Source of the DNA: Bacteroidales bacterium | GTDB lineage: Bacteria; Bacteroidota; Bacteroidia; Bacteroidales; Bacteroidaceae | Assembly: GCA_015060835.1 (NCBI GenBank) | Contig: SUXT01000011.1 | Location: 1-43,241 of the forward strand | Reading direction: 5' to 3' | Length of the DNA stretch: 43,241 nt | Part shown: positions 259 to 13,943 of the stretch, one piece after another | How the letters are laid out: each line of letters opens with the position of its first letter | Position numbering within the stretch: the first letter of the stretch is position 1 | Notes under the pieces: model-generated | Database searches by the model: none | What the model was told of the DNA's origin: nothing | What the model saw: only the letters and a program-made list of their open reading frames with translations | Made by a program: the position numbers and the translations under genes

Positions 259-2748
259 TCAGTCGTTGTTAATCTCCTTGATGTCAACCTCAGTCTTAGA
301 CTCTCCGAGGAGGTAGCGACAGAAGTGGTCGGCCATCTTCCAGAAGAAGTACTCGTCCATGTCGCTGAATGAGTGGCGCTGACCGGGGAGAAGCAGAATA
401 TCGAAACGCTTGTTTGCTCTGATGAGAGCATTGATCACGCGAATTGTATTTGCAGGGTTCACATTATTGTCCATGTCGCCCGTTACCAGCATAAGGTGGC
501 CTTTAAGACGGCTTGCAAGCTCCTGATTATTGCTTATGCGGTAAGCAAATGTAGTGTCAGTCTCGTTGATATTCTCCTTGATACCATGGTGCTTCTCGCT
601 CCACCAACGGTTGTAGATGCGGTTGTCGTGGTTACCGGCGCAAGATACAGCAGCCTTGAAGAAGTCGGGGTAATAAAGGATAGCAGCCGTAGACATAAAG
701 CCACCGCCTGAGTGTCCGTGGATACCTACGCGCTCGCCATCGATGAATGAGTGGCGTGCAATGAGCTGCTGAGCAGCAACCTTCTTGTCGGCAAGACCAT
801 AGTCGCGCAGGTTACCATAACCGAAGTTGTGGTACCACTTCGAACGGTTGGGGTGACCTCCTCGGTTACCGATTGTGATTACGATGAAGCCCATCTGTGC
901 AAGACGGTCAATGCGGTTCATGCCCGATGACCAGCTCTCGTTCACAGCCTCAGTCTGAGGACCGGGATATACATACTCAATCAAAGGATAGCACTTTGTA
1001 GAATCGAAGTCGAAAGGCTTGTACATAACACCGTAGAGGTCAGTGATGCCATCGGCAGCCTTTACCTTGAAGCGTTCAGGATATTTGTAACCGGCATCGA
1101 AGAGACGCGAAAGGTCGGCTGTTTCGAGGTGGTTCAACTGCTTGCCCGCAGCATTGTAGATGATAGATGTAGGAACAGTGTCCACGCGCGAACTGTTTGC
1201 AATGAATGCGCTACCATCCTCCGCAACGTGGAAGCGTCCGTTAAGGTCGCCCTTGTCAAGCTGTTTCAATCCCTTGCCATCGTAGCCTACGCTGAAAAGG
1301 TGGCTATAGTAGGGATTCTCATCCTTGTTGTAACCCTGGGCGGTGAAGTAAACCTTCTTCTCCTTGTCGTTTACAGCAACAACCTCATCCACGTGGAATG
1401 CACCCTCGGTGATGGGGTTGATAAGATTACCGTTCATGTCGTAGAGATAGAGCATTGCCCATCCTGTACGCTCCGACCACTGAATGAAGTTCTTGCCGTT
1501 GTTCACAACCTTAATCTGACGCGATTCGATAGAGGTGTTCATCTCCTCGTGTACGATGGTGATGGCACTGTCAGTATCCACGCTCACGCGGCAGACTTCG
1601 ATTTTCTTCAGGTCGCGGCTTGTACGCTCGAAGTAGAACTCCTTTTCTGTACCGAGCCATACGCGGTTGCGCGGTCTCTTGTACATATTCTCCAGTTTCG
1701 AGGGCTGCTGGAAGAGAGCAACAGTCTGCTCCTTGAATTTGGCAATGTTGATGAATTTGCTGCTCTTTTTCTCCATGTCGAAAAGCTCCATTGTAGTGAT
1801 GGGACCGGGTTCTCCGGGCATCTGATACTTGTAGGTCTCCAATGTGGGACGGGGTGAGCTGAGCGAGTTTATTACCCAGAAATTCTTTACCATAGAATCC
1901 TTCTGATGGAGCATCACAAAGTGGCGCGAGTCGGGCGACCAGAGACCATTGACGCCGAAACGTGCAGTGCTGTCAACCTTCTCAGTGCCTACGGGATGCC
2001 ATGCATAGCAACGGCCGGGACGGCCGTTTGTGGTGAGGCGATGCTCAACTACGGTAGAATCCTTGTCCCAGATGCGGAGCTTTTCAAGTTCCTCTATTGA
2101 CATATACCAAAGATCCCAATTCTTCTCGTAGATAGCATATTTGCCATCGGGAGATACATTTGCCCAATGGGGGTATGAGGGATAGAGATCCTCTATCTCG
2201 TCCTTTGTACGCTCGATGAGCTTACCTGTTTCAAGGTCGTACTCGAAGTGGAAATATTTATTCTCCTTCTGATTTTCCTTCTTTATTTTCTCAATTTTGG
2301 CAGAGTCGTTGCGCTCCCAACGTTTGAGTTGTTTGGGAATTTCGAGTTTAGACTGTATACCTATGCGAATGTAACGGTCCTCGCGCAACTGAAGGTCTCT
2401 GATGGGAAGATGCTGTGCATCATGCGGATCACCGGTCTTTTCTGTAATCTCCGCTGCAAGTTTCGCCATGTCCCACATCTCCTTTTTCTTACCGCTCTTG
2501 GTGTCTACGATGTAGTAGCGTGTGCCATCGGCATATGTCCACGAATACCAGAATCTCTTGCCATCGGAGAACCAATGGGGAGTAATGGAGGTGGATTTTA
2601 CCATACGGCCGATTTTGTTGGGCGAGAATCTCTCGGCAAGTGCATAATTAGGACGTACACGCTTGCACTCCTCGTTCTTAGCCTCGCTCTTCGCCTGCAT
2701 AGTAGTTGCAAGCAGGGGGAGGGCTAAAAGTAAAAAAAGTTTCTTCAT
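259..2748 (-). CDS. S9 family peptidase (dipeptidyl peptidase IV / prolyl oligopeptidase-like), secreted
   Basis: 829-aa ORF, N-terminal signal peptide, DPPIV beta-propeller-like region, C-terminal alpha/beta hydrolase with GHSGGG nucleophile motif. Confidence 0.92.
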   Translation of the reverse strand: MKKLFLLLALPLLATTMQAKSEAKNEECKRVRPNYALAERFSPNKIGRMVKSTSITPHWFSDGKRFWYSWTYADGTRYYIVDTKSGKKKEMWDMAKLAAEITEKTGDPHDAQHLPIRDLQLREDRYIRIGIQSKLEIPKQLKRWERNDSAKIEKIKKENQKENKYFHFEYDLETGKLIERTKDEIEDLYPSYPHWANVSPDGKYAIYEKNWDLWYMSIEELEKLRIWDKDSTVVEHRLTTNGRPGRCYAWHPVGTEKVDSTARFGVNGLWSPDSRHFVMLHQKDSMVKNFWVINSLSSPRPTLETYKYQMPGEPGPITTMELFDMEKKSSKFINIAKFKEQTVALFQQPSKLENMYKRPRNRVWLGTEKEFYFERTSRDLKKIEVCRVSVDTDSAITIVHEEMNTSIESRQIKVVNNGKNFIQWSERTGWAMLYLYDMNGNLINPITEGAFHVDEVVAVNDKEKKVYFTAQGYNKDENPYYSHLFSVGYDGKGLKQLDKGDLNGRFHVAEDGSAFIANSSRVDTVPTSIIYNAAGKQLNHLETADLSRLFDAGYKYPERFKVKAADGITDLYGVMYKPFDFDSTKCYPLIEYVYPGPQTEAVNESWSSGMNRIDRLAQMGFIVITIGNRGGHPNRSKWYHNFGYGNLRDYGLADKKVAAQQLIARHSFIDGERVGIHGHSGGGFMSTAAILYYPDFFKAAVSCAGNHDNRIYNRWWSEKHHGIKENINETDTTFAYRISNNQELASRLKGHLMLVTGDMDNNVNPANTIRVINALIRANKRFDILLLPGQRHSFSDMDEYFFWKMADHFCRYLLGESKTEVDIKEINND

Positions 2749-2765
2749 TTCTTTTTTGTGTTATG

Positions 2766-3971
2766 TTATTTTTTCTTTTTGAATTCGATTTTTGCAATAC
2801 CTCCGGTGGATGTCTCCTTGTAGAGTACAGGGAGGTCGTGGCCCGTGTCGCGCATCACCTCCACTATGTGGTCAAAGGTTATCTTATGCTTTCCGTCGGA
2901 GAGCATAGCGTATGTACATGAGTCAAGTGCACGCGAAGCAGCAATTGCGTTACGCTCAATACAGGGAACCTGCACAAGTCCGCACATCGGGTCGCAGGTG
3001 AGTCCCAAATGGTGTTCGAGTCCCATCTCAGCGGCATACTCTATCTGGTTGATTGTTCCACCGAACAACTGACACGCTGCTGCGGCAGCCATTGCACAAG
3101 CAACACCAACTTCACCTTGGCAGCCAACTTCGGCACCCGAGATTGAAGCATTCTCCTTTACAATGTTACCGATAAGTCCGGCAGTGGCGAGTGCACGCAA
3201 TATGCGCGCTTCGCTGAATTGATAGTTGCCGGCAAGGTGATACAAAACAGCAGGAAGCACTCCGCATGAACCACAGGTAGGTGCTGTTACCACAGTCGCT
3301 CCGCTGGCATTCTCCTCGGAGGTTGCAAGAGCATATGCATACACACGCGCCTTGCTGCGCACCGACGAACTGTATGAATTCGACTTAAGCAGATAGTTGC
3401 CTGCCTTGCGTTGCAAGCCGAGACCGCCGGGAAGCACACCCTCATGTTCGAGTCCGCGAGCAATGGTTGACTGCATGGTGTCCCACACGGTCTTCAGGAA
3501 ATCCCAAATTTCGGGGCCTTCGTGCTGCTCAACATATTCCCAAAAAGCACATCCGGTCTCGTCGCTCCACTGCATAATATCATGCATGTTGGTAAGCGGA
3601 TATATGTCGTCATCGTTCTTTACAGTCGATTCGTTGGCAAGTTCTCCACCACCTACGCTGTAAATAATCCATTCGTCGATTACCTTACCATCCTTTATTC
3701 CCTCGAACTTCATTCCGTTTGAATGGAAAGGAAGAAACACCTCCGGTTCCCAAATTATTTCGAGAGGAGCAATAGGTTCAAGCACATTCATTATCGCTAC
3801 ATCGGTCATGTGTCCGCGACCCGTTGCAGCAAGGCTTCCGTAGAGCGTTACTCTGTACGAATCGACACTTTTGCATCTTTCGGCAAATTGCAGTGCTGCA
3901 CGGTTGGGGCCCATGGTATGGCTGCTGGAAGGGCCGAGCCCAATGCGGAAAAGAGATTTTAGAGATTTCAT
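2766..3971 (-). CDS. sdaA: L-serine ammonia-lyase (single-chain, iron-sulfur)
   Basis: 401-aa ORF; GPSSSHTMGP, APTCGSCGVLPAVLYHL, GCQGEVGVACAMAAAA, CDPMCGLVQVPCIERNA motifs. Confidence 0.95.
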   Translation of the reverse strand: MKSLKSLFRIGLGPSSSHTMGPNRAALQFAERCKSVDSYRVTLYGSLAATGRGHMTDVAIMNVLEPIAPLEIIWEPEVFLPFHSNGMKFEGIKDGKVIDEWIIYSVGGGELANESTVKNDDDIYPLTNMHDIMQWSDETGCAFWEYVEQHEGPEIWDFLKTVWDTMQSTIARGLEHEGVLPGGLGLQRKAGNYLLKSNSYSSSVRSKARVYAYALATSEENASGATVVTAPTCGSCGVLPAVLYHLAGNYQFSEARILRALATAGLIGNIVKENASISGAEVGCQGEVGVACAMAAAAACQLFGGTINQIEYAAEMGLEHHLGLTCDPMCGLVQVPCIERNAIAASRALDSCTYAMLSDGKHKITFDHIVEVMRDTGHDLPVLYKETSTGGIAKIEFKKKK

Positions 3972-4002: not shown

Positions 4003-4449
4003 CTACATTAGCAGATATTTGAGTATACTTTCCCAATCGGGGAATTTCTGCGAACCGAACTGTATCCATTCGCCCTTAAATTCGCCGGCGCCATTCTTTG
4101 CTTTGTCGTCAATAAGATAGTCGCCATCAAGCAAATCCTTGCGATGGGTGATTATGACACGCTTGTGGAACACATCGTCCATATATTTTTTAACCCACTC
4201 AATCTTATCTGACGCAGCTGTAGGATTATTCCACGGCGATGTAGTCAGAATATAGACTTCGTAGTTTCGCGCGAGCAGTTTCACCACTTCTGTTGCGCCG
4301 GGCATAGGTTCCATCAATGCAAAGAGACCGGGAATCTCATCAAGGCGTCCCTCATACTGCTCCTTCACGGCGTCGTCGAGTTTTTTCAATCCTGATTCAA
4401 AATCGACGAGTACACCGTCCATGTCAAAATATATTCTTTTCTTGTTCAT
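4003..4449 (-). CDS. 5'(3')-deoxyribonucleotidase (HAD superfamily)
   Basis: 148 aa, YFDMDGVLVDF HAD motif I, LTTSPWNNPTA, DYLIDDKAKNG. Confidence 0.88.
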   Translation of the reverse strand: MNKKRIYFDMDGVLVDFESGLKKLDDAVKEQYEGRLDEIPGLFALMEPMPGATEVVKLLARNYEVYILTTSPWNNPTAASDKIEWVKKYMDDVFHKRVIITHRKDLLDGDYLIDDKAKNGAGEFKGEWIQFGSQKFPDWESILKYLLM

Positions 4450-4545
4450 AGTTATGTGTTTGCTTATGATATTCTGTAAAATTACTCCTTTTTTTCGAAA
4501 AAAATCGCATTTGGCCGAAAAAAGCTATCCCTGCACAGAAAAAAA

Positions 4546-5589
4546 CTATTTCGACAGGATTGATTTTCCTTTAAATAGTGATTTTATGAGTTTCTTTATC
4601 TTGAAGAGATTTCGCTCCACAACATATAGGTATATATTATGCAGGTCGTGCATCGACTTTGCCGGCTTTATAAGCACACTGCTCTTGGGTGCATCAGGGT
4701 CGAGACGGTCGAGACACGAAGCAATATAGTTGAACATATTGTAATCTTCGAGCACAAGCTCCTTACTCTCACGCAACGCATCGACGCTCTTCGAATATGC
4801 ATCCTCGGCAATCAGACGGTCGATAATTTTCACCGCCCCCTCAAAATCGTGAATATCTATCTTGCAGTAAGACTTCTCAGAGAAGTAATCGTTCACATTC
4901 GTACAACCGTAATATATGGGGAAACAGCCGGCAAGATAACAATCGGACAACTTTTCGGTCCAATAGTATTTCGACTCGGAATTCTCTATTGCAATATGAT
5001 ATTTATAAGGCGCAAGCACATCCCATTTGTCGTCGAAGCCGCGGTATCCTCGTCCGAAGACATCGAGTCTGTCGCCATAATAAGCCTTCAGTTTCTCAAC
5101 AAAATCTATTCTGTCCTGATGTCCCTGAGTAAAAGCCTTATTACTGGTAACCACAGATATAAGTTTGCTCTTTTCGGGCAGCGGCATTGCCTTGAACTCA
5201 TCATAGTCAATGGTGCTCTTGACACCACCCTTGCCGAAGAGCGCACCGACGAACCAGAAAATCATAGCCGGTGTAAAGACCACATTCTTGTGCTTCAGAT
5301 TCTCCTGACACGAACATACCATTCCGAACTGACGACAATAGTCGGCAGGATAGGCAAGCACCGAATATGGCTCGCTTGTGGAAAGCACAACATTCGCCGG
5401 AGCCATATTGAACACCGTATCCTTTTTGAGCGACTTTCCTCTGACCACCACAAAATCAGGGTCGGGAATCATCTCATTGACATAGAATTTATACTTTCCG
5501 CAACGCGAAATACCCTCATGGTTGTGTGTCTGACGAAGAATCCATCTATCCTTTTCTCCATCACCGCTTATCAGCAGAACCTTATACAT
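4546..5589 (-). CDS. Glycosyltransferase family 10 (alpha-1,3-fucosyltransferase-like)
   Basis: C-terminal AIENSESKYYWTEKLSDCYLAGCFPIYYGCTN resembles the GT10 nucleotide-binding motif; start set at MYKVLLISGDGEKD rather than the upstream ATG of the ORF track. Confidence 0.72.
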   Translation of the reverse strand: MYKVLLISGDGEKDRWILRQTHNHEGISRCGKYKFYVNEMIPDPDFVVVRGKSLKKDTVFNMAPANVVLSTSEPYSVLAYPADYCRQFGMVCSCQENLKHKNVVFTPAMIFWFVGALFGKGGVKSTIDYDEFKAMPLPEKSKLISVVTSNKAFTQGHQDRIDFVEKLKAYYGDRLDVFGRGYRGFDDKWDVLAPYKYHIAIENSESKYYWTEKLSDCYLAGCFPIYYGCTNVNDYFSEKSYCKIDIHDFEGAVKIIDRLIAEDAYSKSVDALRESKELVLEDYNMFNYIASCLDRLDPDAPKSSVLIKPAKSMHDLHNIYLYVVERNLFKIKKLIKSLFKGKSILSK

Positions 5590-5734
5590 TATATTATTTT
5601 GATTAAAGTACGTATTATTACGCAAAAATAGTCTCTTTAAAGTTAACAAGCAAATTTACCAGATTCTTAATTTGCCAATTAGAACATCTTGCACTATCTT
5701 CGCAGAACATAATCAACACCACCACATACACAAA

Positions 5735-6775
5735 ATGAAAAAAAGAAGATTACTGATAACCCTCATAAGCATAGCGGCATCACTTGCTGCAATAGCAATA
5801 GTCAGCAGCGGAATAATGTACCATCTGGTAAAAAGTCCGCAGATTAAGCTTCCCGAAACCGCCTACATCTACATATACCCACACGACACATCGGACAGCA
5901 TCATAAACAAGATAAAGGCAGTGGCATCACCCTCCTCCACCCTCGGATTCACTATTCTTGCCAAACACAACAACTTCGACGAGCGGAAGAGAAGCGGCAA
6001 ATTCGCCATCAACGACAAAGATTCATGGTACGACATATACGGACGAATAGTACGCAAAGAGCAAACACCCGTAAAGGTAGTTATCCCCTCGACCCGCAAC
6101 TTCGAACAGTTATCCAAAGCCATAAGCGAGCAACTTATATTCGATTCACTGAGTATACAGGAGTTCTTTGAAAGCACAATATACATCAATCAATTGGGCT
6201 ACACAAAAGAGACATTCCCCACAATCATCATCCCCGACACATACGAATTCTACTGGAATGTAAAACCGGAACAGTTCATGATTCGCATGATGAAGGAGCG
6301 CAAGAAATTCTGGAATAAAGAGCGCCGTGCAAAGGCCGAAGCCATAGGACTGACACCCGAAGAGGTTGCCACACTCGCATCAATCGTCGACGAAGAGACC
6401 AACAACGATGCCGAAAAGCCCATAGTTGCCGGACTATACATAAACCGTCTGAAACGCAACATCCCCCTGCAGGCCGACCCCACAGTAAAATTTGCATTGG
6501 GCGACTTTGCACGCAAACGCATACTCCTAGCCGACCTTGAAGTGGAATCGCCCTACAACACCTACAAAAATGCAGGGCTCCCTCCCGGCCCCATCAGAAT
6601 AGCCACAAAAGCCGGAATTGAAAGCGTACTCAACTACACAAAACACAACTACATATACATGTGCGCAAAAGAGGACTTTTCGGGCACACACAATTTTGCC
6701 ACCACCCTCTCGGAGCACAATGCCAATGCCCGTCGCTATCAGGAAGCGCTCAATAGGCTGAACATAAAGAAATAA
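5735..6775 (+). CDS. mltG: Endolytic murein transglycosylase MltG
   Basis: N-terminal TM; ASIVDEETNNDAEKPIVAGLYINRL..PLQADPTVKFALG..SPYNTYKNAGLPPGPI motifs; start set at MKKRRLL. Confidence 0.95.
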   Translation: MKKRRLLITLISIAASLAAIAIVSSGIMYHLVKSPQIKLPETAYIYIYPHDTSDSIINKIKAVASPSSTLGFTILAKHNNFDERKRSGKFAINDKDSWYDIYGRIVRKEQTPVKVVIPSTRNFEQLSKAISEQLIFDSLSIQEFFESTIYINQLGYTKETFPTIIIPDTYEFYWNVKPEQFMIRMMKERKKFWNKERRAKAEAIGLTPEEVATLASIVDEETNNDAEKPIVAGLYINRLKRNIPLQADPTVKFALGDFARKRILLADLEVESPYNTYKNAGLPPGPIRIATKAGIESVLNYTKHNYIYMCAKEDFSGTHNFATTLSEHNANARRYQEALNRLNIKK

Positions 6776-6794
6776 TACTTACGCAATCGACAAC

Positions 6795-6831
6795 AAGTAG
6801 GAGGAAAGCCAAGCGGCTTTCTTCCTACTTT
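6795..6831 (+). terminator. Terminator hairpin after mltG
   Basis: AAGTAGGAGGAAAGCC-aagc-GGCTTTCTTCCTACTTT. Confidence 0.7.
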
Positions 6832-6885
6832 CGTTATCCATTCTCTTGTACCACAGTACAGACCTACGGCATGCCTGCGCCCCCC

Positions 6886-7470
6886 ACTCAGAGCTAATCT
6901 TTGGACACATCTTTAGCTTTTATATCTTTTGCTAATCTCTTTTAAATAAGAAATATTAGTGTCCGGTAAACGTATTTAAGTCGTTTAAAATTCAATATTT
7001 AAGTTACTACAAGCCCCAATTCTTTATTAAGACAAATTTAAGTCAATGATTGGAACTCCCTCGCCCTTTGGGCACTCCCTCTTTCAAGAGGGAGAATGTT
7101 ATATATTGATAATTTTCAATGATTTACATTCCTCCTCTTGAAGAGGAGGTGGATTCAAAAACTTGTTTTTGAAGACGGAGGAGTTCAAAACATAAGCGGA
7201 ATAAAAATTTACCGGACATGAGAAACTTAAAAAAGCTGTCCCTCTTGAAGGGGGACGAGAACTTTTTTTCTTAAAAAAAGTTCGGAGGGGATTCTTTACC
7301 CATCCTACAGCAATACCCCCTGCTACGCGAGGAAAACCCCTCCGTCTTCAAAAACTATCGTTTTTGAATCCACCTCCCCTTTAAGGGCAGGAACTTTTTA
7401 GAATAGTTTTTTTATCCATTGAAGGATGGGGTTGTACTTTTTAGGTATAATATCGCATAATCATTTTAGT
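6886..7470 (+). repeat. Mosaic intergenic repeat (modules E/B/A), interrupted by element C
   Basis: GCTAATCTTTGGACACATCTTT...; GGGGGACGAGAAC-hairpin-GTTCGGAGGGG; GGTATAATATCGCATAATCATT shared with 26583-26890. Confidence 0.85.
6954..7220 (+). mobile_element. MITE-like element 'C' copy (TIR TATTAGTGTCCGGTAAA), no ORF
   Basis: Left TATTAGTGTCCGGTAAACG, right TTTACCGGACATG; same ~265-bp body as 33532-33801; possible AGAAA duplication flanks (6949-6953 / 7221-7225). Confidence 0.75.
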
Positions 7471-7497
7471 TAGACCTCCCTATAGTTAAACTTCACG

Positions 7498-8583
7498 TTA
7501 TTCTCTAATTTCAATTTTCTCAATGCGAAATTCGTATAAGCCATCAATATTGTCATCAAGAAATCTTTCAATGAGTTCATCTTCAGTCATCGAGTCGAAT
7601 TCATCTTGACTCATATCCTCGAAACAGTCCGATATATTATGCTTAATACACTCTTTGGCATCATTATAACTAACCATATAACTAATTTCACAGTCAATGT
7701 CGTTATATAATGATTCTTCCATATGCTCCTTGAAATATGCAAGAACATCGTCCACACCCTCATCTTTAGCCTGTTGATTAAGTTGCTTAAAGAGTTCTAA
7801 ATCCTTGGATGTCATTTCTAACGTACATTCGCCTTCAATAGCAAAGGCTAACTGTCCCTCATATGTAAAATTCACGATTACCTTATCCCCTTTATCAGAA
7901 GACGTAAGCATAGGACAACCTTCGAACGCATCTTTAGCTATTTCTATACCATTTTCAGGTAAGCTAACTGACGCAAGGTTTTCGCATCGAGCAAAAGCCT
8001 CCTTACCTATGCTTACTACACTTTCAGGGATATTGATAGACCTAAGATCACGACAAGCAAAAAAAGCACCGGACTCAATACTTGTTACGCTTTTGGGTAT
8101 AAGAATAGACGTTAGATTCTTACATCTACTAAAAGCTGATACCCCAATTTTTGCAACTGTATTTGGAATAACAGTACGATTGCAACCCAAAAGCAAAGTA
8201 TTGCTTTCTGTTTCAATGATAGCATTACAGTCATTACGAGAGTCATAATATTTATTACCCTCAGCAACTCGAATGCTACTTAAATTTCCACAGTCGGCAA
8301 ATGTATAAGGAAGGATCTTCTCAACTTTTTCAGGTATAGTAATACTTGTCAGTTCAATGCAACCCTGGAAAGCCATAGAACCTATATATTCTACACTATC
8401 AGGTATGACGATACTTTTTAAATTAGTACACTCAGAAAAGGCGTCCCTACCAATATAAGTTACACCATCAGGGATTACAATACTCTTAAGCTTCTTGCTT
8501 CTTTTAAAGGCTCCATCATCGATATAAGTTTCTCCTTGTGGGATTATGCCTTCTCCTTTCTTATTGATTTTATATTCTGCCAT
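7498..8583 (-). CDS. BspA-type leucine-rich-repeat (LRR_5) protein without an evident signal peptide
   Basis: Tandem IPDSVEYIGSMAFQGC-type repeats; acidic non-repeat C-terminal ~120 aa. Confidence 0.88.
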   Translation of the reverse strand: MAEYKINKKGEGIIPQGETYIDDGAFKRSKKLKSIVIPDGVTYIGRDAFSECTNLKSIVIPDSVEYIGSMAFQGCIELTSITIPEKVEKILPYTFADCGNLSSIRVAEGNKYYDSRNDCNAIIETESNTLLLGCNRTVIPNTVAKIGVSAFSRCKNLTSILIPKSVTSIESGAFFACRDLRSINIPESVVSIGKEAFARCENLASVSLPENGIEIAKDAFEGCPMLTSSDKGDKVIVNFTYEGQLAFAIEGECTLEMTSKDLELFKQLNQQAKDEGVDDVLAYFKEHMEESLYNDIDCEISYMVSYNDAKECIKHNISDCFEDMSQDEFDSMTEDELIERFLDDNIDGLYEFRIEKIEIRE

Positions 8584-8778: not shown

Positions 8779-9582
8779 TTATAATTGCATTTTCAGGACA
8801 AGAATACCCAAACACAATGCAATTGCCAATGAAAGCAAAGTACCAGTCAGTACATATTCTGACTTTTCATCACCTTTGGATGCTTCGCTAAAACGCAGAA
8901 TGGACTTTGCGGCAATCAGGAAACCTATAGCTTCATATTGTGACAGGATAACAAATAGAAGTATAAGTCCACGCTCCAGCCAACCTATCAATTCTCCAGA
9001 ATGGAAATTACCATGTTCATCATTTTTTGTTGGGTTTATATTTACTTTGCAAGTTTCAAGAATAAGCAATATCAAGATATTTGCAGGTTTTAGCGCCAAC
9101 AATAAACCGACCATTGTCTTTAACCTTAGAGGATGATTTATGATAAATTCCTGCAAAAATTCAGGGAGGTGCCAATCGTTATTCCATTTGCTGTACGCCG
9201 AAAACCAAATGTATGCACCCACGACGATTATAGCAATATGCACAATTTGGTCAGCGAGAAATACCCACAAATCTTTTCGTTTACTTTCCCCTGGAATTAC
9301 TTCATTTTGGGCGTTGGTAGTAAGAATACCCATCTTTGATTGTGTGTATGACTTTAACCAATCTGTCAAAAAGTGCATTATCATTATACCAAGGGCAAGC
9401 CACCATCCGCGGATATCCCATATAGCTATCCACGATAAAACTCCCATAATCAAAGAATGCAGCCACAAACTTCTACCTTTAGCAGAATAAAGGAATTTAT
9501 TTTCGCAAGATTTCTTTGTCTGCAAGTAGAAATCTCCCAAGACATGGGCTATGATGAGATTGAATACTAAAGAGTACATCAT
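8779..9582 (-). CDS. DUF3307-like integral membrane protein
   Basis: HVLGDFYLQTKK and HFLTDWLKSYTQ H-x3-D motifs and several hydrophobic segments; overlaps 4 bp with the upstream SatD-like gene. Confidence 0.75.
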   Translation of the reverse strand: MMYSLVFNLIIAHVLGDFYLQTKKSCENKFLYSAKGRSLWLHSLIMGVLSWIAIWDIRGWWLALGIMIMHFLTDWLKSYTQSKMGILTTNAQNEVIPGESKRKDLWVFLADQIVHIAIIVVGAYIWFSAYSKWNNDWHLPEFLQEFIINHPLRLKTMVGLLLALKPANILILLILETCKVNINPTKNDEHGNFHSGELIGWLERGLILLFVILSQYEAIGFLIAAKSILRFSEASKGDEKSEYVLTGTLLSLAIALCLGILVLKMQL

Positions 9583-10232
9583 AGTTGTTTGGTTATTTTA
9601 CGATAATAGATAATCGCTTGTTCTATTGCACTCCAACCAATATCCTTCAAAGTTTGATTGACTCCAGAAACAGATATACCCATTTTTTCAGCAGTCTTAC
9701 TGGTATTAGAAGCCAGTATTCTTTCACATAGGGTCTCGCATTTTCGTGCCGTTGCGTTATTCAACAATTGGTTGACCAAAGTCAGTATCACTTGTAATGA
9801 TTGTTCGTATTCTTCATTCTCCATTGAGATTGCAAATGAATACTTGGCTCTTCCTTTAAGTTTACTCAATGCACGCCCCGAACGATATATAGCATCACCA
9901 TCTATCATATCCAAGTTACGATCAATCGTCTTCATATCACCAATACCAATGGCTATCCGAAGCCCATATCTATTAAATCTTTTCAAATCATTAACATCAG
10001 TCGGCTCAAATGATTTGACCAAAGTCTTTAGTATGAGAGCTGCTTCAAAAGCATCCTCGGGACAATCCATAACACATTCAATAGAGTCACCTTTAACTAT
10101 ACGTCCCCAAAAACCTTGGTAACGTACCTCCAAAGTACTCAGGCATTTTTTCAACTTCTCATTAAGCTCAATCATGGCTTCTTTTGATAGAGAAGTTGAT
10201 GAAACTACATCTGCTGATATTGTTGCATACAT
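9579..10232 (-). CDS. SatD-family-like protein; putative class-III-cyclase-like fold with C-terminal HTH
   Basis: ISADVVSSTSLS, RIVKGDSIECVM, LRIAIGIGD, GDAIYRSGRALSKLKG resemble cyclase homology domain motifs; C-terminal TSKTAEKMGISVSGVNQTLKDIG looks like an HTH. Confidence 0.7.
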   Translation of the reverse strand: MYATISADVVSSTSLSKEAMIELNEKLKKCLSTLEVRYQGFWGRIVKGDSIECVMDCPEDAFEAALILKTLVKSFEPTDVNDLKRFNRYGLRIAIGIGDMKTIDRNLDMIDGDAIYRSGRALSKLKGRAKYSFAISMENEEYEQSLQVILTLVNQLLNNATARKCETLCERILASNTSKTAEKMGISVSGVNQTLKDIGWSAIEQAIIYYRKITKQL

Positions 10233-10245
10233 ATTTTTCTATTTT

Positions 10246-10321
10246 ACAAGTTATATTACTTGTTATCTATTGCTACAAGTGTATTGACTTGTTTTTACTC
10301 ATTACAAGTGATTCCGCTTGC
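10246..10321. promoter_or_regulatory. Three palindromes ACAAGT-N6-ACTTGT at exact 29-bp period upstream of the SatD-like gene
   Basis: 10246-10263 ACAAGTTATATTACTTGT; 10275-10292 ACAAGTGTATTGACTTGT; 10304-10321 ACAAGTGATTCCGCTTGC. Confidence 0.75.
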
Positions 10322-10328
10322 AAATATA
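10320..10328 (-). promoter_or_regulatory. Putative -7 element (TATATTTGC) for SatD-like/DUF3307 operon
   Basis: Minus-strand TATATTTGC matches the Bacteroidetes TAnnTTTG consensus; no well-spaced -33 TTTG (nearest has a 24-nt gap). Confidence 0.4.
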
Positions 10329-10529: not shown

Positions 10530-11870
10530 TTACCATTCCCAATCGAATCGGCGTATATCCTCCTCAACAAGAGAATCACCCATCTGCACCTCAACAATCT
10601 GCAAATCAGTAACGGCCTTGATAGCATGCTTCTGTCCCATCTTTATGGTAAGGACATCGCCACGCGAAACGCGACTGATGACACCATCGAGTACCACAAT
10701 ACCTTCGCCGTCGACAACAGTCCACACCTCCTGACGATGCTCATGAATCTGATAGCTGATGTAACGGCCGCTCTTCAAGTGAAGCACCTTGGTCAACGAC
10801 ATATAACCGTCGCTGTAAGTGGTGCTGTCAAGCACTCTGTAGCTACCCCATCTGCGCTCCTCATACATGGGACGGGGCGAGAGATTATCGACATAATTCT
10901 TGATATTCTCGCTGCACTCCTTACCGCATACAAGAATACCGTCGGGACTGCTCGCAACCACAATGTCCTTCACACCGTTGCAGAAAACAGGGATTCCAAG
11001 TTCATTGATAACATGAGTATTCTCAGCCTGCTCACCCAAAAGAGCATTTCCGATTGCAGTTGACGACAACTCCTCTGTCAGTGAATTCCATGTTCCAAGA
11101 TCCTTCCACTTGCCATTGAAAGGAACCACAGCCACAGACTCAGCCTTTTCGGCAACCTCGTAGTCGAAACTGATTTTGGGAAGTTCGCCGTAGCGATTGC
11201 GTAACTCGACAAACGAAGCAGCCTTGATATATTTTTCCAAAATGTCGACCATATAACCGAGTCGGAAGGCAAACACACCGCCATTCCAGAATGCGCCCTC
11301 GGCCAATAGCTCTTCTGCACGCTTCGTATCGGGCTTTTCAGTGAAACGCTTTACACGAAGCACACTCTTTCCGCAATCTTCGGCAACAGGAACCACATAT
11401 CCGAACTTTGTCGAAGGATATGTAGGAGTAATACCCATAAGCACCATGTCGGCCTCGTTTCTCTCAACGGCAGCAACCATGTCGGCAATCACATCGAAAT
11501 ACTCGGTCTCGGTATATGGGTCGCAGGGCATTATCACCACAACCTCATCGTTGCTGCACTCCTTTGCCATCGACAGATAGCCCGATGCAAGCGCAATCGC
11601 GGGGAATGTATCTCTGCGTTCAGGCTCAGTAACAATATCTACATTGTCGCCCAACTGATTGATTATTATATCGTGCTGAGAGGAGTTTGTGGCAATCGTA
11701 ATTTTACCCGCCAGGCGAGACTCACCTATCTGACGTACAACGCGCTGCACCATAGACTCAACCTCTCCCGACGGTGTCTGCAACAACGGCAGGAACTGTT
11801 TGGAGCGTGCATTGTTCGACAACGGCCACAGGCGCTTGCCCGAACCTCCTGACAATAATATTATCTGCAT
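10530..11870 (-). CDS. manC: Mannose-1-phosphate guanylyltransferase / mannose-6-phosphate isomerase-like
   Basis: ILLSGGSGKRLWPLSNNARSKQFL, FTEKPD, WNGGVFAF; C-terminal cupin RPWG-like (ERRWGSYRVLD) domain. Confidence 0.93.
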   Translation of the reverse strand: MQIILLSGGSGKRLWPLSNNARSKQFLPLLQTPSGEVESMVQRVVRQIGESRLAGKITIATNSSQHDIIINQLGDNVDIVTEPERRDTFPAIALASGYLSMAKECSNDEVVVIMPCDPYTETEYFDVIADMVAAVERNEADMVLMGITPTYPSTKFGYVVPVAEDCGKSVLRVKRFTEKPDTKRAEELLAEGAFWNGGVFAFRLGYMVDILEKYIKAASFVELRNRYGELPKISFDYEVAEKAESVAVVPFNGKWKDLGTWNSLTEELSSTAIGNALLGEQAENTHVINELGIPVFCNGVKDIVVASSPDGILVCGKECSENIKNYVDNLSPRPMYEERRWGSYRVLDSTTYSDGYMSLTKVLHLKSGRYISYQIHEHRQEVWTVVDGEGIVVLDGVISRVSRGDVLTIKMGQKHAIKAVTDLQIVEVQMGDSLVEEDIRRFDWEW

Positions 11871-11888
11871 ATCTTTTCTATTTTTATA

Positions 11889-12830
11889 TTATCTTTCGGC
11901 ACGCATAGGATTGTTCAGAAAATCCTCGTACGCAACCTTAATTCCATCTTCAAGTTCAGTGCGGTATCTCCAACCCATCGCAGCGCTCTTAGACACATCG
12001 AGCAACTTGCGCGGAGTGCCGTTAGGCTTTGATGTATCCCAAAGAATCTCACCTTCGTATCCTACCACCTTTGCAACAAGTTCCGTAAGCGCCTTGATGG
12101 TGATTTCCTTACCCGTACCGGCATTGACAGTCTCGTTACCACTATAGTTGTTCATCAGGAACAGACAGAGATCGGCAAGGTCGTCAACGTAGAGAAATTC
12201 GCGCAAGGGAGTGCCATCCCCCCAACAGGTAACCGACTCTCGTCCCTCCTCCTTTGCTTCGTGGAAGCGGCGTATAAGTGCCGGAAGCACATGGCTGTGT
12301 GTGGGGTGATAGTTGTCGTTGGGGCCATACAGATTGGTGGGCATCACACTTATGAAGTCCGTACCATATTGGCGGTTGAGATATTCGCAATATTTCAAAC
12401 CCGATATTTTTGCGAGCGCGTATGCTTCGTTTGTCTCTTCGAGCGATGAAGTGAGCAGACAACTCTCTTTCATCGGCTGCGGTGCAAGACGCGGATAGAT
12501 GCAAGAAGAGCCGAGGAAAAGCAACTTTTTGCAACCATTCTGCCATGCTGCATGAATCACATTCATTTCGAGAATCATATTTTCGTACATAAAGTCGGCA
12601 AGAGCATTGCTGTTTGCAACAATTCCTCCAACCTTAGCAGCGGCAAGAAAGACATATTCGGGCTTCTCCTGTTCAAAGAAGCGCTCAACATCCTGCTGAC
12701 GACAGAGATCAAGTTCCTTGTGTGTGCGGGTAACAATGTTCGTGTATCCGCATCGTTGCAATTCGCGCACTATGGCCGAACCGACCATGCCTCTGTGGCC
12801 TGCAACATATATTTTTGCATTCTTTTCCAT
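11889..12830 (-). CDS. fcl: GDP-L-fucose synthase
   Basis: GHRGMVGSAIVRELQ, FLGSSCIYP, YALAKISGLKYCEYLNRQYG, MPTNLYGPNDNYHP. Confidence 0.96.
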   Translation of the reverse strand: MEKNAKIYVAGHRGMVGSAIVRELQRCGYTNIVTRTHKELDLCRQQDVERFFEQEKPEYVFLAAAKVGGIVANSNALADFMYENMILEMNVIHAAWQNGCKKLLFLGSSCIYPRLAPQPMKESCLLTSSLEETNEAYALAKISGLKYCEYLNRQYGTDFISVMPTNLYGPNDNYHPTHSHVLPALIRRFHEAKEEGRESVTCWGDGTPLREFLYVDDLADLCLFLMNNYSGNETVNAGTGKEITIKALTELVAKVVGYEGEILWDTSKPNGTPRKLLDVSKSAAMGWRYRTELEDGIKVAYEDFLNNPMRAER

Positions 12831-12851
12831 TATCCTTGTCTTAACGGGAGA

Positions 12852-13943
12852 CTACTTGACAATACCCTTTTCAAGATACTCGGCAAGATTGGTGCGGATG
12901 TGCTCTCCGGCACGCTCCACAGCCACCTTCGCCATATCAGCATCCACCATAATCTTAACCAACTGTTCGAATGTGGTCTTTGTGGGATTCCATCCGAGTT
13001 TTTCGCGTGCCTTTGTCGGGTCACCCCAAAGGTTGACCACATCTGTCGGGCGGAAGAAATCGGGCGACACCTCTACAAGTACCTTTCCTGTAGCCTTGTC
13101 GATACCCTTCTCATCAATACCTTCGCCTACAAATTCAAGTTCTATGCCCACATGCTTGAATGCATGGTAGCAAAATTCGCGCACAGAATGTTGTTCACCC
13201 GTAGCAATGACAAAGTCCTCGGGTTTCTCATTCTGCAATATCAGCCACATACACTCCACATAATCCTTTGCGTAGCCCCAGTCGCGCAACGACGAAAGGT
13301 TACCAAGATAGAGTTTTTCCTGCTTACCCTGTTTGATGCGTGCAGCTGCAAGGGTTATTTTGCGTGTAACAAAAGTTTCGCCTCGGCGCTCCGATTCGTG
13401 ATTGAAAAGTATTCCCGAACAGCAGTACATTCCGTACGCCTCGCGATACTCCTTAACTATCCAGAATCCGTAAAGTTTGGCAACAGCATAAGGGCTGTAA
13501 GGGTGGAAAGGAGTATCCTCGTTCTGAGGTACCTGCTCAACCTTACCGTAAAGTTCGGAGGTTGATGCCTGATAGATTCTACACTTGTCCACAAGACCGC
13601 ACTGACGTACAGCCTCAAGCACGCGCAACACTCCCGTAGCATCAACATCTGCTGTAAATTCGGGAGCATCGAAACTTACCTGCACATGACTCTGCGCAGC
13701 AAGGTTGTATATTTCATCGGGGCGGACTAAGCCTATGACCTTCAGCAGGCTCATAGAGTCTCCCATATCTGCATAGTGTAGGTGGAAGCGCGGATGACCT
13801 TCGAGGTGCGCAATGCGCTCTCTGAAGTCTACCGATGAGCGGCGTATAGTACCATGAACATCGTATCCCTTTTCCAAGAGAAATTCCGACAGAAACGAAC
13901 CGTCCTGTCCTGTTACGCCGGTTATTAAAGCTGTCTTTGACAT
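12852..13943 (-). CDS. gmd: GDP-mannose 4,6-dehydratase
   Basis: [39 protein letters not shown]-type [28 protein letters not shown]. Confidence 0.97.

Follow-up and report, generated by a model that had tools for sequence, protein, structure and literature searches.

The satD–duf3307 gene pair: a conserved module with a phased promoter array and a possible autoregulated membrane effector operon

The streptococcal sat operon encodes a member of the SatD family (PF16264), to which the putative regulatory protein of the locus considered here is homologous. In Streptococcus pyogenes, satD was the only accessory gene (178/249 genomes) found to be transposon-essential in every tested strain having it (PMC11323703). 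This pattern is as expected of an antitoxin or of a repressor of a harmful partner, and an accessory-yet-essential regulator is one point of likeness to autoregulated toxin-antitoxin operons, others being a regulator gene in first position, overlapping genes, and palindromic operators at the operon's own promoter. Class III nucleotidyl cyclases (Ma1120, Rv1264, PycC) offer a second comparison, as they share with SatD a predicted fold and aspartates at both metal positions, which are separated by 44 residues in EaPycC (PMC11224242) and by 41 residues in SatD. The Pycsar and Panoptes antiphage systems offer a third, as they consist of two genes encoding a nucleotide-enzyme fold and a membrane effector.

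The satD–duf3307 pair departs from each of these systems. In contrast to toxin-antitoxin operons, the partner that would be the toxin is large and spans the membrane several times, a predicted cyclase fold forms part of the regulator, and the operator is a multi-unit lattice. In contrast to class III cyclases, SatD carries an added C-terminal helix-turn-helix (HTH) and lacks the transition-state Asn, while the Arg is variable. Unlike the antiphage systems, the pair has a phased operator array, and its candidate effector contains no recognised nucleotide-binding domain. The cyclase fold of SatD, its promoter array, and its pairing with DUF3307 were not found described in the literature searched, and no paper found there mentions SatD in connection with either DUF3307 or phage defence. 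The pair was examined in a 43,241-nucleotide stretch of DNA from a Bacteroidales bacterium (contig SUXT01000011.1; referred to as the window), for which an initial annotation had proposed a nucleotide-signalling or defence module.

The gene pair and its distribution

The two open reading frames lie on the same strand and the satD stop and duf3307 start codons share the letters ATGA, giving a 4-bp overlap, in agreement with the initial annotation:

9579–10232, minus strand: satD, operon gene 1, encoding a 217-aa cyclase-fold protein with a C-terminal HTH (ORF list, AlphaFold, Foldseek, PF16264 via relatives)
8779–9582, minus strand: duf3307, operon gene 2, encoding a 267-aa multi-pass membrane protein (PF11750 DUF3307, E=9.5e-19)

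The coupling of these genes, which had also been proposed, is near-obligate. In a GTDB scan, for which a closer sequence set was used as the first wide alignment was too diverse, DUF3307 lies immediately downstream of SatD on the same strand in 76/80 SatD loci; two of the remaining four are cut by contig ends and two are without a detected DUF3307. Further loci were collected starting from DUF3307, plasmids, and viral-labelled contigs, and SatD precedes DUF3307 in 41 of these 42. The 42nd, from Fusobacterium, has a divergent PF16264 SatD directly upstream that falls below the detection of the profile. Distances among SatDs are correlated with those among their DUF3307 partners (r=0.89). Judged by gene order and sequence, satD–duf3307 is a genuine conserved bicistronic module of bacteria and haloarchaea. 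No other gene holds a fixed position beside the pair in the 80 loci, where the commonest further neighbour is an integrase (9/80 loci, in varied positions).

Hosts of the pair include Bacteroidota, Vibrio, Salinivibrio, Sphingomonas, Fusobacterium, and haloarchaea. Its distribution in Bacteroidales is patchy, with the pair present in 27/201 genomes of the family and 2/13 in the genus of the window, while this type of DUF3307 occurs in 109/396 sampled Bacteroidota genomes (about a quarter). In Flavobacterium (a genus label inferred from gene content), the pair is found in 51/100 good genomes at one fixed chromosomal site between housekeeping genes, near guaB and pyrD (names from reading the sequences), and no defence genes were recognised at this locus. 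The pair is also carried on plasmids in several lineages, including the mobilisable 3.8-kb E. coli plasmid pEC34A, almost half of which it occupies (1792–3481); Klebsiella plasmids of the same size match as well, and a search of E. coli genomes for the pEC34A pair gave no match. No SatD was found among 50,697 phage records, only five viral-labelled contigs carry one, and the Fusobacterium SatD, used as a query against viral contigs, gave no match.

Departures from the usual partner and features of the surrounding DNA were also observed. In Aerococcus tenax (4097–7709), the gene after satD encodes a DUF975 membrane protein in place of DUF3307, and those before satD encode a ribonuclease-domain protein and barstar. 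The partners of SatD may therefore include further membrane proteins, and the essentiality of S. pyogenes satD may likewise concern a partner other than DUF3307. In the window, the pair is followed by a BspA-type leucine-rich-repeat protein (7498–8583), and similar repeat proteins are found near the pair in four other loci (L030, L033, L036, L042). The module is flanked by a GT10 fucosyltransferase-like gene (4546–5649) and by genes of a GDP-fucose route (10530–13943; ManC-like, Fcl-like, Gmd), which are likely surface glycan genes.

Predicted structures of SatD and DUF3307

The following parts of SatD can be delimited:

9828–10232, minus strand: cyclase-like domain, residues 1–135, from conservation in 86 non-redundant SatDs and profile matches
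10209–10211 and 10086–10088, minus strand: codons of D8 and D49, respectively, both invariant
Residues 111–120, within the cyclase-like domain: DGxAxYxSGR motif
9639–9707, minus strand: HTH, residues 176–198, with the recognition helix at about 188–198, from secondary structure, Sigma70_r4_2/GerE matches of relatives, and half-site tracking

The initial annotation had read the motifs of a class III cyclase in their expected order, with D8 and D49 as potential metal ligands, and had named structure prediction as a check. The AlphaFold model of SatD (mean pLDDT 95.3, pTM 0.92, 46 sequences) supports this reading, as class III cyclases (Ma1120, GC-A, Rv1264) make up nearly all of its best Foldseek matches in the PDB. 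The match to Ma1120 (4wpa) has an E-value of 1.8e-4, a probability of 1.00, and TM scores of 0.44/0.57, and an Anabaena uridylate cyclase appears at rank 31. At the level of sequence, the SatD profile finds the cyclase 3mr7 first (E=0.0038), followed by a GerE HTH and Ma1120 (E~0.2). The modelled fold is similar to that of class III cyclases but distant from it.

Both aspartates are unchanged in 86/86 divergent SatDs (80% non-redundancy). The predicted fold and the two metal-type side chains of a class III cyclase are present; the Asn/Arg pair of the NxxxR motif is not. As had been annotated, the Asn is replaced in the window SatD (by Tyr116); this position is variable across the 86 SatDs, Arg120 is kept in 65/86, and the intervening S118-G119 is nearly invariant. 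This combination suggests that the binding of a metal-nucleotide by D8 and D49 is likely and that ordinary cyclisation is doubtful, given the missing catalytic Asn and an Arg that only some members retain. The C-terminal HTH was borne out by matches of 12/24 SatD relatives to Sigma70_r4_2-like models (best 5.7e-7). The designation SatD-like could be sustained through relatives and not from the window protein alone, which has no Pfam match at E<=1, PF16264 included, its branch scoring below the Pfam model. With the Pfam gathering score of PF16264 as the criterion of family membership, the SatDs of Haloplanus (8.5e-32) and Fusobacterium (3.2e-14), both of which directly precede DUF3307 in the same gene pair, exceed the cut-off, and 7/24 aligned relatives match the model (best 1.6e-6).

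The AlphaFold model of DUF3307 (pLDDT 89.7) has no fold match in the PDB, and no solved relative was found by fold or sequence. Invariant polar residues are located on several predicted helices (H13/D17, H42, H70/D74/K77, D111/Q112/H115, E203/R204, K226/S227/R230, and E242/Y243). Together with the lack of a known fold, these residues make an embedded site for catalysis or transport plausible. No nucleotide-binding or cyclic-nucleotide-binding domain was recognised in 22 DUF3307 members. Assignment as a YdjM/PF04307-type membrane hydrolase was rejected, with an hhalign probability of 0.2 against a small, 3-sequence profile.

The promoter array and its putative reader

An array of palindromic units (10246–10321) lies before satD, just outside the interval covered by the initial annotation and absent from it:

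10246–10263, no strand: proposed operator unit nearest satD, ACAAGTTATATTACTTGT, a perfect dyad
10275–10292, no strand: proposed operator unit, ACAAGTGTATTGACTTGT, a perfect dyad spaced exactly 29 bp from the 10246 unit
10304–10321, no strand: degenerate proposed operator unit, ACAAGTGATTCCGCTTGC, with 2 mismatches, exactly 29 bp from the 10275 unit
10321–10328, minus strand: candidate -7 box, TATATTTG, matching TAnnTTTG, directly before the array

The units follow the pattern ACAAGT-N6-ACTTGT (two perfect, one degenerate), and the perfect sites at 10246 and 10275 are the only two in the 2.64-Mb assembly (86% complete), in keeping with an operator that serves in cis only. The consensus of the Bacteroidetes -7 box is TAnnTTTG, and since the candidate box stands directly before the array, transcription would start within the array.

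The same architecture, with different half-site sequences, precedes satD in most relatives. Autocorrelation of the upstream regions peaks at a lag of 29 and its multiple; clade B, Flavobacterium, and Vibrio have a period of 28. The best lag is 28 or 29 in 95/127 satD upstream regions versus 20/168 control promoters (p=2e-29). Perfect dyads with 6-bp arms number 531 against 63 expected, same-gap dyads are spaced almost only 14, 28, 29, 42, 56, or 58 bp apart, and the direction of the half-sites alternates every 14–15 bp. Arrays of seven or eight units occur at L101 and L150, and two haloarchaeal plasmids carry GTTCGCC...GGCGAAC-type units in 29-bp pairs. Only a weak pattern, or none, is seen in Fusobacterium, Aerococcus, and Sphingomonas, and the operator model as stated does not apply to those SatDs without a detectable array. 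Among 119 loci, the last -7-type box is at the end of the array in 61, before it in 11, inside it in 25, and missing in 22; the box of the window precedes the array, whereas in many relatives the last box is at the array's end. Upstream of satD at L101 and L103, most of the 7–8 near-identical 29-bp units contain TATATTTG themselves, and each unit could therefore resemble a promoter core.

The identity of the reader of this array is suggested by covariation. The distance between half-site motifs tracks that of the recognition helix when the cyclase domain is controlled for (partial r=0.40, permutation p=0.001); once the helix is given, no further contribution comes from the cyclase domain (partial r -0.09). 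Shared descent of helix and motif inflates this covariation; the contrast between helix and cyclase domain is not explained by descent alone. Because the half-sites track the recognition helix and not the cyclase domain, the array at the satD promoter is very probably bound by SatD itself via the HTH. A binder whose sites may lie to either side of the promoter core would fit repression better than activation. Computationally, the pair thus has the feature of an autoregulated toxin-antitoxin operon in which a palindromic operator at the operon's own promoter is read by the operon's own DNA-binding domain. The DNA-binding tail noted in the initial annotation is present, but very probably not as a mere curiosity, as it would read a dedicated array phased at 28/29 bp. 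This role would shift the reading of the pair from a cyclase plus effector to a sensor-repressor plus effector.

Candidate functions of the module

The suggestion of an accessory or defence module was upheld in part. The pair is patchy and plasmid-borne in several lineages, but its enrichment in defence islands is at most weak. Genes near the pair (n=114) include PrimPol (three proteins, identified with PADLOC PrimPol models), Type III MTase, and PDC-type candidates, and distal control genes (n=115) include methyltransferases, in each set as few cases among the top 25 families listed. On a Sphingomonas insulae plasmid (7000–14400), the pair adjoins a TIR-domain gene and a Pycsar-type operon that encodes a cyclase, a cysteine-rich protein, and a Pycsar effector, and in three Bacteroidales loci (L078, L086, L094) the next gene encodes a protein of ~966 aa resembling TOTE conflict-system proteins. 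Membership in Pycsar or CBASS was rejected, as neither SatD nor DUF3307 has a PADLOC match at E<=1; the Pycsar-like layout that had been claimed is a likeness in layout, not membership.

In the explanation we prefer, and hold with middling confidence, satD–duf3307 is an autoregulated effector operon in which SatD is a nucleotide-sensing repressor that restrains the membrane effector DUF3307. We infer that the cyclase fold would bind a metal-nucleotide through D8 and D49 while the HTH occupies the alternating half-site lattice at the promoter, such that cooperative occupancy would repress the operon. DUF3307 would then be an effector to be kept low or inactive, and is possibly toxic. Stress, acid, or phage takeover might change the nucleotide state, upon which SatD would be released and DUF3307 set free, leading to growth stop or an altered membrane. 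A more elaborate form of this mechanism, in which SatD covers the lattice as an unbroken filament whose HTH dimers and cyclase-domain dimers sit on alternate sets of dyad axes, and in which a composite nucleotide site exists only on the array, would make SatD a DNA-templated nucleotide enzyme or sensor controlling the membrane effector; we consider this distinctly improbable.

Occurrence at a fixed locus in half of the Flavobacterium genomes is unusual for a toxic, selfish module. It agrees with SatD as a nucleotide- or stress-responsive housekeeping regulator of a useful, non-toxic membrane protein, perhaps in acid or secretion stress as the naming of the streptococcal sat operon would suggest. 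Conserved surroundings in other genera point the same way, as do the many invariant polar residues of the DUF3307 helices, which suggest an enzyme or transporter, and the link of S. mutans sat genes to acid tolerance that is cited in PMC11323703. We regard this alternative as unlikely, though a serious contender, given that the pair is patchy within its family and genus and is carried on plasmids as small as 3.8 kb, and that the essentiality of satD in S. pyogenes is better suited to the guarding of a toxic partner. A messenger model along the lines of the initial annotation would have SatD work as an active enzyme, either a nucleotidyl cyclase or a palm-type nucleotidyltransferase, and its product gate DUF3307 in the manner of Pycsar or Panoptes, with an HTH that only autoregulates. 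This model draws on the predicted fold, the operon with a membrane protein gene, and the Sphingomonas neighbourhood, and the invariance of both aspartates across bacteria and archaea favours chemistry. It is rather improbable in view of the incomplete NxxxR pair, the lack of a recognisable nucleotide-binding domain on DUF3307, the PADLOC result, and the absence of clear defence-island enrichment. Tandem phased repeats before the operon of a small DNA-binding protein, together with plasmid carriage, could also describe an iteron-like centromere bound by SatD; such a partition or maintenance site is very improbable indeed, as the pair is without a ParA/ParM/TubZ-type motor, the chromosomal neighbours of most copies differ from contig to contig, and the array is at the promoter and not set apart from it.

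The module brings together two functionally uncharacterised Pfam families and is common to bacteria and haloarchaea, and the architecture of its promoter, with half-sites every 14–15 bp and a period of 28/29 bp, is conserved while its sequence drifts. The small plasmid pEC34A is a convenient laboratory test object for the pair. If the proposed autorepressing operon is correct, a cyclase fold would have been adapted to sense nucleotides while bound to DNA, and it could be tested directly whether the accessory-yet-essential satD of S. pyogenes guards against a harmful partner in the membrane.
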